From an uncultured Alcanivoracaceae bacterium (lineage in GTDB: Bacteria; Pseudomonadota; Gammaproteobacteria; Xanthomonadales; Marinicellaceae): DNA of 36,872 nt. Numbering within the stretch: the stretch's first letter is position 1; each line of letters opens with the position of its first letter. Shown in pieces: positions 17,582-24,732 of this stretch. Position numbers and translations under genes: made by a program. The notes beneath the pieces are model-generated. The model searched no databases and was not told the origin of the DNA. It worked only from the letters and a program-made list of their open reading frames with translations. The DNA is taken from assembly GCA_913061105.1 (NCBI GenBank), contig CAJXVJ010000007.1:1-36872 (forward strand), written 5' to 3'.

Positions 17582-18784
17582 TCACCCTCTTAATTCAGCA
17601 CTTTTTTGGTGGAATACCAAGCCTTCGGCTTCTGCCAAAATTGATGCAGTCTTTGCCAATTCAACTCTGCCATTGTCATTAATTTTTTGACTCGATAGGA
17701 CTTTCAAAAATTGATGAACACTCAGTCCACCGGAATATTTTCCAGCACCATTTGTCGGTAATGTGTGATTTGGTCCTGCGCAATAATCGCCAAATGCCAC
17801 AGCAGAGTTTTCACCTATAAATATTGAACCATAATTTTTAAACACAGAAGTATCACTATTTTTATCTGTGACAAGCAAATGCTCAGGTGCATAGTCATTG
17901 ATCAATTCAATTGCTTGGGCTTGATTGTCCGCAAGTACAAACTGAATCTGGTTGTTTTTGATTAATTCAACACCCGAATCATGTGCCTTTGTACAACTGT
18001 AAAGATTGTCTAACAGCTGTTGTGATGTGCTAACAATAATGCTAATGGCATTGGCATCATGCTCTGCTTGCGCCAGTGCATCATACATTATCCATTCTGA
18101 TTTGCTTAATTCATTGGCAAAAATCATCAATTCGCTTGGACCGGCCAAGGTGTCTATTTTTGTTCGGTCTTGAACTTGCGCTTTTGCTGAATTAACATAG
18201 GCATTGCCTGGGCCAACAATCATGTTTACAGGCTCAACATCGGCAAAACCATAGCTCAATGCACCAATGGCTTGCGCACCTCCAACATGAATAAACCTAG
18301 TCGCTCCTGCCAATGAAGCCGCTGCCAATAAAGCGGGGTGATTCGATGGCGAACAAGCCACCCGATTTGAACACCCTGCCACTTGTGCTGGAGTCAATGT
18401 CATTAATGCGCTAGATATCAATGGAAAATTCCCACCTGGAATATAGGCACCAATGTTTTCTATTGGTTGATACACATAACCAAATGTACCGAATTCATCT
18501 GAATAGGATTCATCACTTAAACCACGCATTTGAAATTCACAAAATGATTTGATGCGAGCATATGCCGTTAAAATGGCTTGTGATAGTTCTGGCTCAAGAC
18601 CATATTTTTCAAAAGGCAAGAGTTCTATAAATTTGGCAGGTTTACCATCTATCTTTTCATTCCATTGGTTTACCGCCTCATCGCCATTGTTGTCTATATC
18701 ATTGAGAATGGCTTTTACCTTCTCATCAATAGATTGCAAGTCATCAATGGCTGAACGTTTAAAGTCTATCGCATTAACGATCAT
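17582..18784 (-). CDS. hisD: Histidinol dehydrogenase
   Basis: AYIPGGNFPLISSALMTLTPAQVAGC, VGPGNAYVNSAKAQV, DTLAGPSELMIFA, DYCAGPNHTLPTNGAGKYSGGLSV. Confidence 0.97.
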   Translation of the reverse strand: MIVNAIDFKRSAIDDLQSIDEKVKAILNDIDNNGDEAVNQWNEKIDGKPAKFIELLPFEKYGLEPELSQAILTAYARIKSFCEFQMRGLSDESYSDEFGTFGYVYQPIENIGAYIPGGNFPLISSALMTLTPAQVAGCSNRVACSPSNHPALLAAASLAGATRFIHVGGAQAIGALSYGFADVEPVNMIVGPGNAYVNSAKAQVQDRTKIDTLAGPSELMIFANELSKSEWIMYDALAQAEHDANAISIIVSTSQQLLDNLYSCTKAHDSGVELIKNNQIQFVLADNQAQAIELINDYAPEHLLVTDKNSDTSVFKNYGSIFIGENSAVAFGDYCAGPNHTLPTNGAGKYSGGLSVHQFLKVLSSQKINDNGRVELAKTASILAEAEGLVFHQKSAELRG

Positions 18785-20018
18785 TGTTTCTACTCCTTAA
18801 ATCATTGACTATTTCAGATATGCCTACTCCTTTTGATTTGGCCATAACCATCGTAAAAAACAACAAATCTGCGGCTTCCCAGCGCACATGGTTATGGTCT
18901 TTTGCTTCGATGAGTTCTTCACATTCTTCTCTAAGTTTTTCAATTTGTAAGTTCTCATCACTGAATAGTGCCTGAGTAAATGATGGCTTTTTAGTGTCTT
19001 CTGCCAATCTTTTTTCAAATATTTCATCTAAATAACCTAATGAATAATTTTGATTTTGGGATGCAAAACAACTGTACCGATCAAAGTGGCAGGCATTGCC
19101 GCCTTGTTCAACCAAAAACAATAAGGTATCGCCGTCGCAATCCACGTCAACAGCAACCAATTTTTGCGTGTTGCCACTGGTCAAACCCTTGGTCCACATT
19201 TCGTTTCTTGAGCGCGAATAATATGCCCCTGTTCTTTGTGATAATGCCAATTGCAATGATTCTGGCGTACTATAGGCCATCATCAAAACCTTATTGGTTT
19301 TACAATCCTGAACAACCGTTGGAATCAATGGCAATTTATTGAAATCAACCAAAGACATAAAAGCTTTGTCTAAATCCATGCTGCCTGAATAAATCGCCAT
19401 GCCAATTTGTGAATTGGCGCCTAATTGGTTAATCCATTGCAAATCTTCATAACTGCTAATCCCACCAGCAACAGTCACTGGTATGTTTGAAGCTTTGATA
19501 ACTTCAGATATTCTGTCTTTATCAATGCCTCCCATCATGCCTTCTTTTTGCACTTGAGTATAAAGAAATTCACCACAATTTTTGGCCATTTCAGGAATAA
19601 TATCTATCACTTTTTGCTCCTGTGTTTTTTTCCAACCGTGTGTGGTTAAATAATCTCCTTTGGCATCTATGGCAAATACCAATGATTGTTTGGGTAGTTT
19701 TTTAACAAAATCAGCAGTGGCTGATGTGCCCAAAATGATTTTGCTAGCACCCGCTGCCAAGTAAGCTTTAGCCACATCTAAATCCCGAATTCCACCACCG
19801 ACTCTACACGGTGTTTTACGAAGCATTTTTTCGATCAGCACTTGGTTGTTTCCAGTTCCCATGGCAGCATTGAGATCTATGATAGCGACTTCGCCATACA
19901 TAGAAAATTCTTCTAACAATGCAAATACATCGTCTTTTTCTATTATCTTCTTTTCGGCTTGTCCTTGTTGTAATTGGACAGCCTTGCCATCCAGTAAATC
20001 TATTGAAGGTATTAACAT
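18774..20018 (-). CDS. hisA-hisIE: Trifunctional fusion HisA-HisI-HisE (ProFAR isomerase / PR-AMP cyclohydrolase / PR-ATP pyrophosphatase)
   Basis: One 414-aa ORF. HisA ~1-225 (IPSIDLLDGKAVQLQQG, RVGGGIRDLD, VFAIDAKG, YTQVQKEG, VAGGISSYEDL); HisI ~226-325 (VVQDCKTNKVLMMAYS, YYSRSRNEMWTKGLTSGNTQ, DVDCDGDTLLFLVEQGGNACH...SCF); HisE ~326-414 (REECEELIEAKDHNHVRWEAADLLFF). Confidence 0.94.
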   Translation of the reverse strand: MLIPSIDLLDGKAVQLQQGQAEKKIIEKDDVFALLEEFSMYGEVAIIDLNAAMGTGNNQVLIEKMLRKTPCRVGGGIRDLDVAKAYLAAGASKIILGTSATADFVKKLPKQSLVFAIDAKGDYLTTHGWKKTQEQKVIDIIPEMAKNCGEFLYTQVQKEGMMGGIDKDRISEVIKASNIPVTVAGGISSYEDLQWINQLGANSQIGMAIYSGSMDLDKAFMSLVDFNKLPLIPTVVQDCKTNKVLMMAYSTPESLQLALSQRTGAYYSRSRNEMWTKGLTSGNTQKLVAVDVDCDGDTLLFLVEQGGNACHFDRYSCFASQNQNYSLGYLDEIFEKRLAEDTKKPSFTQALFSDENLQIEKLREECEELIEAKDHNHVRWEAADLLFFTMVMAKSKGVGISEIVNDLRSRNNDR

Positions 20019-20794
20019 GATTGTGTTCTCATTTTGATTTTGTTTTTAATTAAATAGTCTTTGATTTGTTCCACAGTATATTCTTTTCTGTGAAAAATCC
20101 CGGCAGCCAAAACTGCATCGGCTCCTGCATTAATGGCGTCTAAAAAGTCTACTGGTTGATTGGCCCCGCCTGAAGCGATAATGGGAACAGAATAATCTTG
20201 ATTAGATAGTAAATCTAAATCAAACCCTGAACCGGTCCCATCTTTGTGCATGGCATTGATCATGATCTCTCCTGCGCCCCGTTGAATCACTTCATTCATC
20301 CATGAAGCATAGTTTTTCTCTACTCTTTTCGAACCACCATGTGTATATAAAACCAACTCACCACTTGCCTCTAAATTAACATCGACTGCAACGATGAGAC
20401 TTTGTGAGCCATATTTGTTGGCAATTTGATCAATTAGATTAGGATTCAAAACTGCCGCGGTATTCAAGGTGACTTTATCTGCACCTGCATTAAAGAACTT
20501 ATCAACATCCTCTAATATTTTTAAACCACCACCCACTGTAAAAGGTATTGAAAGTGTTTTTGCCACTTTATTGACCAATAACAAGGCGGAATCTTGCTTA
20601 TCAACACTGGCTTTAATGTCTAAGAAAACCAGTTCATCTGCGCCTTGGTGTTGGTATTGCAAACCCATTTCAATCGGATCACCCATGTCTTTTAATTGTT
20701 TGAAGTTTGTGCCTTTGACAACACGGCCATTTGCCACATCTAAACAGGCAATAATACGTGGAACCAAGGATGTTTTTTGAATTAATTTTGACAT
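20012..20794 (-). CDS. hisF: Imidazole glycerol phosphate synthase cyclase subunit
   Basis: RIIACLDVANGRVVKGTNF, TVGGGLKILEDV, DKVTLNTAAV, DGTGSGFDLDLL, IASGGANQPVDF. Confidence 0.97.
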   Translation of the reverse strand: MSKLIQKTSLVPRIIACLDVANGRVVKGTNFKQLKDMGDPIEMGLQYQHQGADELVFLDIKASVDKQDSALLLVNKVAKTLSIPFTVGGGLKILEDVDKFFNAGADKVTLNTAAVLNPNLIDQIANKYGSQSLIVAVDVNLEASGELVLYTHGGSKRVEKNYASWMNEVIQRGAGEIMINAMHKDGTGSGFDLDLLSNQDYSVPIIASGGANQPVDFLDAINAGADAVLAAGIFHRKEYTVEQIKDYLIKNKIKMRTQSC

Positions 20795-21369
20795 GCTGCT
20801 ACTCCTTGCAAAGTTTCATTTATCAGTTGCAAACCATAATCACCTGATTTTTCTGGGTGAAATTGAAATCCATAAACATTGTCTTTTTGAACTATCGCAC
20901 AAAAGTCATTACCGTAATTAACAGTCGCTTGACAAAATTCACTGTTACGAACTCCGAAAGAGTTGACAAAATAAACAAAATTTCCATTACTGTTTTCATC
21001 AACAGAATTCAATTGTGCCCAGCCAACCATTGGGGTTTTGGGGAAGTCTAATTTCTCAATTTCTCCTGTAAATATTGCCAAACCCTTGGCCCCAGTATCT
21101 TCTTGGCTTGATTCAAAGAGTAATTGCATGCCCACACAAATTCCGATAAACAGTTTGTCTTGTGCAATCCAATCTAAAATAAATTCCCGCCAATTGTTTT
21201 TGTTCAATTGGTCTGCTACAAAACCAAAACGGCCTTGCCCAGGCATCACCAAAACATCAAAATTTGAATCGGGTTTATCCAGAACAACCACTTCATTGCC
21301 AGTCTTAGAAAATGCTGAAACAATGCTCAGTAAATTTCCAGAATTTAAGTTAATAATCCCAATTCTCAT
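20782..21369 (-). CDS. hisH: Imidazole glycerol phosphate synthase glutamine amidotransferase subunit
   Basis: MPGQGRFGF, GICVGMQLLFESS catalytic Cys, FQFHPEKSG catalytic His/Glu. Confidence 0.97.
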   Translation of the reverse strand: MRIGIINLNSGNLLSIVSAFSKTGNEVVVLDKPDSNFDVLVMPGQGRFGFVADQLNKNNWREFILDWIAQDKLFIGICVGMQLLFESSQEDTGAKGLAIFTGEIEKLDFPKTPMVGWAQLNSVDENSNGNFVYFVNSFGVRNSEFCQATVNYGNDFCAIVQKDNVYGFQFHPEKSGDYGLQLINETLQGVAACQN

Positions 21370-21935
21370 AACATGCCCTTTGTGGTGGCAGAATAATCAG
21401 AAGGCTGTAAGGCTTCTTTAAAAGCATAAGCCATGGCTTTGAACGCACTTTCTATCAAGTGGTGGTTGTTTTTAAAGTATTGATTATTGATGTGTAAACA
21501 AATCTTGGCATTGATGGCAAATGTATAAAAAAAGTGCTCCCACATTTCGGTGTTAATGCCTCCTAATTGTGCTTGTGAAAAAGGCAAATTCGTCACACAA
21601 AAAGGACGACCACATAAATCAAGGGCACAGGTAGTCAAGGCTTCGTCCATTGGCAGTAATCTTTGTCCATATCTTTTGTTGTTTTGCGATTTCCAAGCAC
21701 TATACACCGCTTCTCCCAAACAAATGGCCACATCTTCAATGCCATGGTGGTCATCAACATGTAGATCGGCTTTGGCTTTTATGTCCAAACTCCAACAAGC
21801 GTGTGTTGCCAATTGATCCAACATGTGATCAAAAAAGGGCAAACCTGTATCAATATCGATTACTTTTGAATCTGGATTAATATCTAGCTTTAATGTGATG
21901 TCTGTTTCTTTGGTTTTTCTGTTAATTGTAATCAT
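21366..21935 (-). CDS. hisB: Imidazoleglycerol-phosphate dehydratase (monofunctional, no phosphatase domain)
   Basis: 189 aa; DTGLPFFDHMLDQLATHACW, DDHHGIEDVAICLGEA, HHLIESAFKAMAYAFKEAL; no N-terminal HAD domain. Confidence 0.97.
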   Translation of the reverse strand: MITINRKTKETDITLKLDINPDSKVIDIDTGLPFFDHMLDQLATHACWSLDIKAKADLHVDDHHGIEDVAICLGEAVYSAWKSQNNKRYGQRLLPMDEALTTCALDLCGRPFCVTNLPFSQAQLGGINTEMWEHFFYTFAINAKICLHINNQYFKNNHHLIESAFKAMAYAFKEALQPSDYSATTKGML

Positions 21936-23530
21936 AATAATTCTCTGACTTCATTGATGTTATTGAGCACAATGTCTGCACCTGCATTATAGAGGTTTGT
22001 AGCGTTTTCACCAATACCTATACATACACAGTTAGCTGCGGTTCCAGCTTGCATATCATCTACAGTGTCTCCACAAAACCACATGCGGTTTTTATTGGCC
22101 TTATCTTGAACCCAATTGATTCCTAACGGAGAAGGTTTTTGAGCGGACACATCGTCTGCTGAAACAATATAATCTGGTGAAATTTTTAATTGCTTAACAC
22201 CTGCCAATGCTTCAATTTTGGGACGACCTGTGATTATGGCTGTTGTATAATTTTTACTAAACAATTCTGGTGTAATTGAAGCTTCTAACAAATTGACTTC
22301 GTTACTCTTATACTTGTTGTAATACTCTTGAAATTTATTAACAACATTGGTTAACCAGACAGTGAAACCAGCAGACTCAATTAACCCTTTGGTCAAATCC
22401 CAATCATTATTAAACCCACCTTTTTCACGAAGTTCGGTGATTTTATCTACACTTACAGTGCTTTTTGTGAAGTATTCAACTGTTTTGACGATACTGACAT
22501 CATAAGATTGGCTGGTATCAATCAACACTCCATCCATGTCAAAACCCAATATTTCTGGTTGAAAGACTGTTTTTAATACACCCATCAATTGCTCAATGTT
22601 TTCAGGAATGGTGATGCGTACACAATTTGGCAAATCATTGACATGGGTTTTAATTTGTATGCCATTTTTTAATAGGAAGGACTTTAAAAGGGGTTTTATT
22701 TTTTTCTGAACCCTGAACAATAAAAAATTGCCTTTGCCATTATATACATCGACATCCATGGATTTTAAAAGGGCATAGATTTTATCTCTGTTATTGGCGA
22801 TTTTTTGACAATAAGCCTCCATTTCTTGTGAGTTTTGCAAGGCTTTTTTCGCCAGTTGAAGACTGACTTGATTGACATTAAACGGCATGGCAAGCTTCTT
22901 AAAATTTTTGATTAATTCCGCATTTCCGATTAAATAACCAATTCTGGCACCCGCTAAACCATAAGCTTTTGAAAAAGTGCGCAACGAAATTACATTGTCA
23001 TATTCTAGGGCATAATTTATCTCGCTGTTCTCAAGATAAAATTCAACATAGGCTTCATCCAAAAATACATTAGCGCCCTTTTTCTTAGCAGACTCAATTA
23101 AATCTATAAGGGTTGCTTCGGCCAAACATTCCCCAGTGGGATTATTGGGCCGTGTAATAATCAGCCATTGATTGGCTTTTAGTTTCTGCTTTATTTCTTT
23201 GGCATTGATATCAAGATTTTCCAATCCATTAACTTTAATATAATCTATGCCCCAAATACCCAATTGGTGTGTGTATTGGCTAAATGCTGGTGTGGGCAAA
23301 AGAATGGATTGTTCCTTTAATTTACACAATTTAAAAAGCAATTCAATCGATTCATCGCCACCATTGCTTAAAAACACATTTTCAGTTTTAGTCAGATACT
23401 TGTCGGCAATCAGCGCCTCTATTTTTTTTCTGTCTGGGTATTGCCACAAACATTGACTATCGATGTTAAACCCATCTAGCCATTTTGGGACAGAATCCGC
23501 CCTTTCATTGAAATCTAATTTTAAAGTCAT
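21932..23530 (-). CDS. hisC: Fusion of histidinol-phosphate aminotransferase (HisC) with a C-terminal HAD-superfamily phosphatase; putative bifunctional HisC/histidinol-phosphatase
   Basis: HisC ~1-325 (TRPNNPTGECL, VFLDEAY, RTFSKAYGLAGARIGY with PLP Lys, LPNCVRITI). HAD ~326-532 with complete motifs FDMDGVLIDT, IITGRP, QKPSP, CGDTVDDMQAG. Confidence 0.92.
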   Translation of the reverse strand: MTLKLDFNERADSVPKWLDGFNIDSQCLWQYPDRKKIEALIADKYLTKTENVFLSNGGDESIELLFKLCKLKEQSILLPTPAFSQYTHQLGIWGIDYIKVNGLENLDINAKEIKQKLKANQWLIITRPNNPTGECLAEATLIDLIESAKKKGANVFLDEAYVEFYLENSEINYALEYDNVISLRTFSKAYGLAGARIGYLIGNAELIKNFKKLAMPFNVNQVSLQLAKKALQNSQEMEAYCQKIANNRDKIYALLKSMDVDVYNGKGNFLLFRVQKKIKPLLKSFLLKNGIQIKTHVNDLPNCVRITIPENIEQLMGVLKTVFQPEILGFDMDGVLIDTSQSYDVSIVKTVEYFTKSTVSVDKITELREKGGFNNDWDLTKGLIESAGFTVWLTNVVNKFQEYYNKYKSNEVNLLEASITPELFSKNYTTAIITGRPKIEALAGVKQLKISPDYIVSADDVSAQKPSPLGINWVQDKANKNRMWFCGDTVDDMQAGTAANCVCIGIGENATNLYNAGADIVLNNINEVRELL

Positions 23531-24375
23531 ATGGCTTTCCTAATGGGTATTTCTAAGATGTCAGTCGCACCAGCTTTTATCAATTGTGGAATTAACGCCT
23601 TGACTTGATTACGTTTGACAGCAGCCCTAACTGCGAAATCATTGCTTTGGTACAATTGTGAAACAGTTGGCGCTCGCATAGCAGGCAATAATTCAACAAT
23701 TTTTTCCATGGCATTCTGTTTGCAGTTCATTTCCAATAACACCCGCTTTCTGCCGTTTAAAACCCCATTCATTAGGAGCAACATGTCATCAATAATGGCT
23801 TTTTTATCGGGATCATCTAGACACGATTGATTGGCAAAAAATTGGGTATTGCTGGTATAAACTGTATCGACAATTTTCAAGTGATTGGCTAAAATTGTGG
23901 TGCCTGTACTGGTGTTGTCTATAATCATATCGGCATCTTCGGGTGGAAAAACTTCTGTCGCACCGTACGAACGAATCAATTTATAATCAAAGCCTTGCTC
24001 ATCTAAAAACTTTTTACTCAGTGTTTTGTATTCTGTTGCCACAATAATTTTACGTTTCTTTAAGTCTGCATAATCCCATTCATCTGGAATACAAGCCACA
24101 ATCTCAACAGGATTAAAACCCAATGATTTTAGAATTTTCACATCGGCCTTTTGCTCTGCTATCCAATCCAACCCTGCAAACCCTATGTCATGTTGTTCTA
24201 ACTCAACCAGTTTTGGAATGTTTTGCGACTTTAACAATTTTATTTCAAAAGTTGAATCCGAGCACAAAGGCCTATAATTGCGGTCATTACTCTGTAACGT
24301 CAACCCTATTTCTTCTAGTAAATTAACTATTTCTACTTGCAGTTTGCCTTTTGGAATGGCCATTTTGATTTTCAT
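23527..24375 (-). CDS. hisG: ATP phosphoribosyltransferase (long form)
   Basis: 282 aa; IPKGKL, DIGFAGLDWI, IVATEYKTLSKKF, ADMIIDNTSTGTTI; C-terminal regulatory-type region ending KAGATDILEIPIRK. Confidence 0.95.
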   Translation of the reverse strand: MKIKMAIPKGKLQVEIVNLLEEIGLTLQSNDRNYRPLCSDSTFEIKLLKSQNIPKLVELEQHDIGFAGLDWIAEQKADVKILKSLGFNPVEIVACIPDEWDYADLKKRKIIVATEYKTLSKKFLDEQGFDYKLIRSYGATEVFPPEDADMIIDNTSTGTTILANHLKIVDTVYTSNTQFFANQSCLDDPDKKAIIDDMLLLMNGVLNGRKRVLLEMNCKQNAMEKIVELLPAMRAPTVSQLYQSNDFAVRAAVKRNQVKALIPQLIKAGATDILEIPIRKAI

Positions 24376-24402: not shown

Positions 24403-24443
24403 AAAAAAAAGCCCCGTAAATGTATTTAATTTAACGGGGCTTT
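24403..24443 (-). terminator. his attenuator 2: rho-independent terminator immediately upstream of hisG
   Basis: Minus strand: AAAGCCCCGT(24443-24434)-16 nt loop-ACGGGGCTTT(24417-24408) then T-run to 24403. 10-bp GC-rich stem, ending 27 nt before the hisG ATG. Confidence 0.92.
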
Positions 24444-24479: not shown

Positions 24480-24536
24480 TCACCGCCGTTTGTGATGATG
24501 TGAATGATGTCGAATTTGTTTGTTTGTATTATTCAT
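24480..24536 (-). CDS. his leader peptide 2: MNNTNKQIRHHSHHHKRR* (18 aa)
   Basis: ATG AAT AAT ACA AAC AAA CAA ATT CGA CAT CAT TCA CAT CAT CAC AAA CGG CGG TGA: five His codons in a six-codon window, 36 nt upstream of terminator 2. Confidence 0.88.
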   Translation of the reverse strand: MNNTNKQIRHHSHHHKRR

Positions 24537-24557: not shown

Positions 24558-24594
24558 AAAAAAAAGCCCCGTAGAGTTCAATCTGACGGGGCTT
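24558..24594 (-). terminator. his attenuator 1: rho-independent terminator
   Basis: Minus strand: AAGCCCCGT(24594-24586)-13 nt loop-ACGGGGCTT(24572-24564)+TTTTTT. Same stem sequence as attenuator 2. Confidence 0.92.
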
Positions 24595-24635: not shown

Positions 24636-24698
24636 TTAAACAGCACCGTCCGATTTCGAATGGTGATGATGGTGCAAGTTGTTTAAAAAATTATTCAT
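24636..24698 (-). CDS. his leader peptide 1: MNNFLNNLHHHHHSKSDGAV* (20 aa)
   Basis: ATG AAT AAT TTT TTA AAC AAC TTG CAC CAT CAT CAC CAT TCG AAA TCG GAC GGT GCT GTT TAA: five consecutive His codons, 41 nt upstream of terminator 1. Confidence 0.92.
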   Translation of the reverse strand: MNNFLNNLHHHHHSKSDGAV

Positions 24699-24701
24699 GG
24701 G

Positions 24702-24732
24702 TTTATATTAACGCCCTTAAATTTATTGTCAA
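24702..24732 (-). promoter_or_regulatory. Putative sigma70-type promoter of the his operon
   Basis: Minus strand TTGACA (24732-24727), then AATATA at 17-nt spacing (24709-24704) or TATAAA at 19-nt spacing (24707-24702). Confidence 0.55.

Follow-up and report, generated by a model that had tools for sequence, protein, structure and literature searches.

The leader of the histidine (his) operon was analyzed in a 36,872-nucleotide (nt) stretch of DNA, here called the window, from an uncultured marine Alcanivoracaceae bacterium placed by GTDB in the Marinicellaceae; the window corresponds to contig 7 in a 371-contig, 3.6-Mb genome. A tandem leader lies directly upstream of hisG at the head of a complete his operon and consists of two units in series on the minus strand, each with a short His-rich open reading frame (ORF), an antiterminator strand, and an intrinsic terminator. 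A first-pass annotation of this DNA had described one such unit as a His attenuator. That unit is real, and the leader holds two of them behind one promoter.

Two leader units between one promoter and hisG

Unit 1 opens with leader peptide ORF 1, which runs from an ATG at 24698 to a TAA at 24636 on the minus strand, spans 20 codons (MNNFLNNLHHHHHSKSDGAV), carries the His codons CAC CAT CAT CAC CAT, and is probably leaderless. Immediately 5' of its stop codon, at 24640..24652 (minus), lies antiterminator strand 1 (region 2), made up of GACGGUGCU and its neighbors, which pairs with the 5' arm of intrinsic terminator 1 at 24558..24594 (minus; AAGCCCCGT ... ACGGGGCTT, then a T run). Both the ORF with five His codons and the strong terminator stem followed by T's were present as first annotated. 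A second complete His attenuator lies downstream of unit 1, in series, at 24536-24403 (minus), with leader peptide ORF 2 at 24480..24536 (minus; MNNTNKQIRHHSHHHKRR), whose His run is broken to HHSHHH, and intrinsic terminator 2 at 24403..24443 (minus; AAAGCCCCGT ... ACGGGGCTTT, then a T run). The antiterminators and terminator 5' arms can pair as GACGGTGCT/AGCCCCGTC in unit 1 and as AACGGCGG/CCCCGTT in unit 2.

Both units were compared with shuffled and database sequences. None of 3,000 dinucleotide shuffles of the 670-nt intergenic region yielded an ATG-started ORF of 8 to 40 amino acids with at least four His in five residues, and in the whole window leaders 1 and 2 are the only ATG-started ORFs with at least four His in five. 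The unit 1 leader RNA folded better than 200 of 200 shuffles (z −3.6), and the stretch 24545-24400 gave a comparable value (z −3.9). A covariance model trained on unit 1-type sequences alone recovered unit 2 of the window (E 3.5e-8), and covariance model and pattern searches of the window's genome found no third copy. The top Rfam match for both units was His_leader (RF00514; E 0.0011 and 0.0051); no Rfam family reached its gathering score in the window, and no T-box was among the weak matches. A terminator scan with a loop limit of 8 found none, the loops of terminators 1 and 2 exceeding that limit.

The minus strand has a single promoter-like site upstream of unit 1, TTGACA-16-TAATAT at 24705..24732 (−35 box, 24732-24727; −10 box, 24710-24705; 10 of 12 matches), and none was found between units 1 and 2. 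Such sites are no more frequent in the region than in shuffles. The −10 box ends 6 nt from the leader 1 start codon, and the same promoter stands 6 to 8 nt from that codon in 46 loci. Because this spacing matches the usual distance of about 6 to 8 nt from a −10 box to the +1 position, transcripts should start at or beside the leader 1 start codon. No Shine-Dalgarno site was visible at tandem leader 1 or 2 (median 0.3 and −0.2 kcal/mol), compared with −4.9 kcal/mol for hisG and −1.0 kcal/mol for random sequence. Judging from promoter geometry, the mRNA of the first leader is probably leaderless.

Alternative pairings and ribosome position

The proposed 2:3 pairing between the end of ORF 1 and terminator 1 was borne out and is longer than the 7 of 8 positions originally noted: GACGG/CCGUC and GCU/AGC surround one U-C mismatch, and AAUC/GAUU is added in the nascent fold. 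Antiterminators paired with their own terminator arms at a mean of −13.0 kcal/mol, compared with −11.1 kcal/mol (standard deviation, 0.19) for permuted arms, and the best of 10,000 permutations reached −11.8 kcal/mol. Arm pairs differ among lineages, as in AACGGGG/CCCCGTT of Marinicella unit 1, TGGCGG/CCGCC(A) of Kangiella unit 1, and AGCGACGG/CCGTTGC of Kangiella unit 2. Within tandem leaders, each antiterminator also favors the arm of its own unit over that of the other (for unit 2, −13.0 versus −9.9 kcal/mol). Checked for covariation, pair counts over 30 unit 1 sequences favored both alternative stems, with few pairs changed on both sides (2 and 4) and with kinship inflating the counts. These counts cover unit 1 alone, because in the unit 2 alignment the antiterminators of different clades fall in different registers. 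Many unit 2 peptides of the Marinicellaceae and Kangiella clades end in RR, RRR, RRC, or RRF or carry RRW, because CGACGG/CGGCGG doubles as the antiterminator strand.

We then masked the RNA with a ribosome whose A site held either the first His codon or the stop codon, its footprint edge assumed to lie 11 nt beyond the A codon, and folded the nascent transcript as it stands before the terminator 3' arm exists. Mean pairing of the terminator 5' arm was 0.75 in the first of these states and 0.24 in the second, and the difference was in the expected direction in 95 of 96 units. For window unit 1, the probability of the antiterminator was 0.94 with the ribosome on His codons 1 to 4, 0.63 on His codon 5, and 0.00 on the stop codon. 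The corresponding values for window unit 2 were 0.68 on the first His codons and 0.07 at the stop codon.

The 1:2 hairpin fared differently. The 12-bp stem first proposed for it, TTAAACA/TGTTTAA with GCACC/GGTGC, exists as complementarity (−9.6 kcal/mol), but the best fold of the preterminator RNA reaches −15.5 to −16.5 kcal/mol and the pairing is not conserved; the complementarity is real but probably does not form the 1:2 hairpin. What recurs among sister species is instead a hairpin with an apical CACC, drawn from the His codons, paired with GGUG atop a basal AUUUAAC/GUUAAAU stem, the GUUAAAU strand lying downstream of the stop codon. A 1:2 element thus likely exists in another register, although the 1:2 statistic for the single window units is weak (P 0.15 and 0.10). 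We also considered a relay in which the freed 3' arm of terminator 1 serves as an antiterminator for unit 2. This pairing reaches −17.8 kcal/mol in the window yet is no better than that between unrelated genomes (P 0.92), and the relay was rejected as an evolved feature.

Distribution of the leader and context of the operon

Regions upstream of hisG from the window's family, together with 71 loci from a genome-wide scan, were screened for short His-rich ORFs and terminators. Nearly all loci were positive, giving 96 distinct His-leader units across 69 hisG loci. The carriers are Marinicella and its relatives, Kangiella, Pleionea, and Aliikangiella, along with a few metagenome-assembled genomes (MAGs) labeled Acidobacteria, Melainabacteria/Cyanobacteria, Spirochaetes, and Bacteroidetes that have a related HisG. 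The window HisG is 66 to 87% identical to HisG of Marinicella and its relatives, which places the organism in or near the Marinicellaceae. In other families of the same order, the four upstream regions that were read had no His leader, and HisG differs (about 28% identity).

Tandem units occurred in 28 of the 70 rows of a HisG tree and were clustered: all 13 Kangiella-clade rows have them, as do 15 of the 25 in the Marinicellaceae clade, among them the window; one locus (L033) was scored as tandem since its contig starts inside a preceding terminator. The single and tandem labels require at least six changes on this tree, five of them forced by well-supported branches, and the tree, built by a quick method, does not separate gain from loss. 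Loss of unit 2 is nevertheless the simpler reading, because the single-unit rows of the Marinicellaceae clade (for example, L031, L032, L034, L035, L039, and L043) retain the promoter-proximal type. A class-wide scan with a lineage-specific covariance model recovered the window's genome only, and tandem units of other sequence types may exist elsewhere. Relatives also gave weak matches to the model (E about 1e-4), perhaps generic terminators. A pattern search of 369 Gammaproteobacteria for His runs in tandem was far too noisy to read.

Several other features were seen at these loci. Eight loci (L087 to L089, L091 to L093, L095, and L096) from MAGs labeled Melainabacteria/Cyanobacteria and Spirochaetes, far outside the Proteobacteria, have His-rich leader ORFs followed by terminators upstream of hisG, such as MTGRNHHHHHMFLDGAD. 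Albibacterium bauzanense (Bacteroidota; L100) has a His-rich small ORF, MNYTFTHHLHFHRHCGDIK, 124 to 64 nt 5' of hisG. An Rfam TwoAYGGAY RNA (44.9 bits; cutoff, 43) lies at positions 2335-2472 of the Kangiella aquimarina locus L052 (minus), upstream of the tandem leader and on the opposite strand.

The first gene of the controlled operon is a long-form hisG at 23527..24375 (minus; PF01634, 1.1e-35; PF08029, 4.4e-23). The remaining genes, at 17588..23530 (minus), are a hisC-HAD fusion, hisB (IGPD), hisH, hisF, a hisA-hisIE fusion, and hisD. The fusions place HisC with a HAD-type hydrolase (21932-23530), which is perhaps a histidinol-phosphatase, and HisA with HisIE (18774-20018). Marinicella, Kangiella, Pleionea, and one Acidobacteria MAG likewise have, after hisG, an ORF of HisC-HAD size (about 550 to 590 amino acids) with a HAD-like end. 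Within the window's family, four genomes (G011, G013, G015, and G017) have a HisG about 26 to 36% identical that resembles that of the rest of the order, and the other genomes share a Kangiella-like HisG. The his operon has probably been exchanged as a block, leader included. In one relative (G012), the hisD match at C1:931973-933130 contains one in-frame TAG, which is either a sequencing error or a pseudogene.

A probable two-stage attenuator and its relation to known systems

Taken together, these results make it very probable that the his operon is governed by a series of two complete, ribosome-mediated attenuators that share one promoter and both read charged tRNA-His. The region contains clustered His codons, a position between promoter and operon, a terminator, and, by computation, a mutually exclusive antiterminator. 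The attenuation first proposed for unit 1 draws good support from the conservation, the coevolution of the arms, the similarity to Rfam His_leader, and the folding under a ribosome mask; the 1:2 stem drawn for it is the part that did not hold. RNA polymerase would start at or beside the leader 1 ATG, and a ribosome would load once the 5' end emerges. If charged tRNA-His were scarce, the ribosome would stall at the first His codons, GACGGUGCU would bind the terminator 5' arm, and transcription would continue. Unit 2, which the polymerase would reach next, has a start codon, His codons, an antiterminator, and a terminator of its own, and there a second decision would be made. Were the two decisions independent, read-through would be the product of two probabilities, giving a lower leak in excess histidine and a steeper response, because logarithmic gains add. 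A fuller account, in which the first unit is leaderless, the second is reached by internal initiation without a Shine-Dalgarno site, the response is of this low-leak, steep product type, and the module moved with the his operon between Marinicellaceae and Kangiellaceae lineages, with several losses of the second stage, seems to us evenly balanced between holding and failing.

Several observations weigh against control by two attenuators. Both units score below the RF00514 gathering score (33.3 and 30.0 versus 49 bits) and by score are not members of that family, though they would work like one. The 2:3 pairing of the single window units is only modestly above shuffles (P 0.03 and 0.01), and several relatives manage with one unit. 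The antiterminator of window unit 2 forms even without a ribosome (0.67), and therefore the absence of translation would not shut unit 2; stalling at the later His codons of this unit leaves the antiterminator unfreed. In full-length unit 1 RNA the terminator prevails in every state, and the switch must therefore be kinetic.

Unit 1 might be the sole working sensor, in which case unit 2 would be either a duplicate in decay or a second terminator, constitutive and bearing the remains of an ORF. The absence of unit 2 from 10 of 25 Marinicellaceae-clade rows, its lack of a Shine-Dalgarno site, and its interrupted His run in the window (HHSHHH) fit this idea, which we nevertheless judge improbable: unit 2 retains its His codons, terminator, and matching antiterminator in two families, its antiterminator prefers its own arm by the margin given above, and a constitutive terminator at this position would silence the operon. 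Slightly more credible, though still unlikely, is an ordinary 5' untranslated region (UTR) transcribed from another, unseen promoter, with the leader translated in the usual way. That promoter-like sites are no commoner here than in shuffles is in its favor; against it stand the identical strong promoter at 6 to 8 nt in 46 loci and the lack of a Shine-Dalgarno site.

Two further explanations carry very little weight. His-rich peptides can bind metals, and the ORFs could in principle encode functional metal-binding peptides, the terminators then belonging to small mRNAs. The ORFs, however, always lie directly 5' of hisG, the peptide ends track the antiterminator RNA, and the genome has no further copy, which makes this explanation highly implausible. 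A chance poly-His ORF with hairpins in AT-rich intergenic DNA is the least credible of all; the pairings were initially read by hand, but the ORF is absent from all 3,000 shuffles, both units fold well beyond shuffled expectation, and conservation across 69 loci already refutes chance.

Single His attenuators are textbook systems, and the unit described in the first-pass annotation is a real one of this known kind. What appears to be new is a same-signal tandem with a probably leaderless first leader, conserved in two families. In full-text literature searches no paper described a series of two attenuators for one amino acid, which is weak evidence of novelty since subscription papers were mostly outside their scope. 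How a single leader determines basal leak and steepness is the question of a published attenuation model (PMC1183508). A natural series for one amino acid, present or absent among close relatives, makes this question directly testable.

Among known systems, the hisL attenuator of E. coli and Salmonella (RF00514) is the top Rfam match for both units. It differs in that both an AGAGA site and upstream sequence precede the ATG of E. coli hisL, whereas the window has two units in series, the first with its start codon right after the −10 box. The leaderless attenuator mRNA of Sinorhizobium meliloti trpL was shown by experiment to start at the leader ORF ATG (PMC7298713). That leader is a single unit for Trp, whereas the window has a tandem for His with a leaderless start inferred from its promoter; here the conserved spacing from −10 box to ATG suggests a route to synchrony between ribosome and polymerase without the usual 5' UTR. 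In some gammaproteobacterial rimP leaders, one terminator likewise follows another and the upstream terminator has a potential antiterminator (PMC2965389); that account differs in describing no amino acid leader peptide. The Salmonella mgtCBR leader, with the two short ORFs mgtM and mgtP, resembles the window in carrying tandem attenuators in one leader and was called a singular example (PMC3641672). Its attenuators respond to different signals, ATP and proline, and lack intrinsic terminators, whereas both units of the window would read histidine and both end in an intrinsic terminator.
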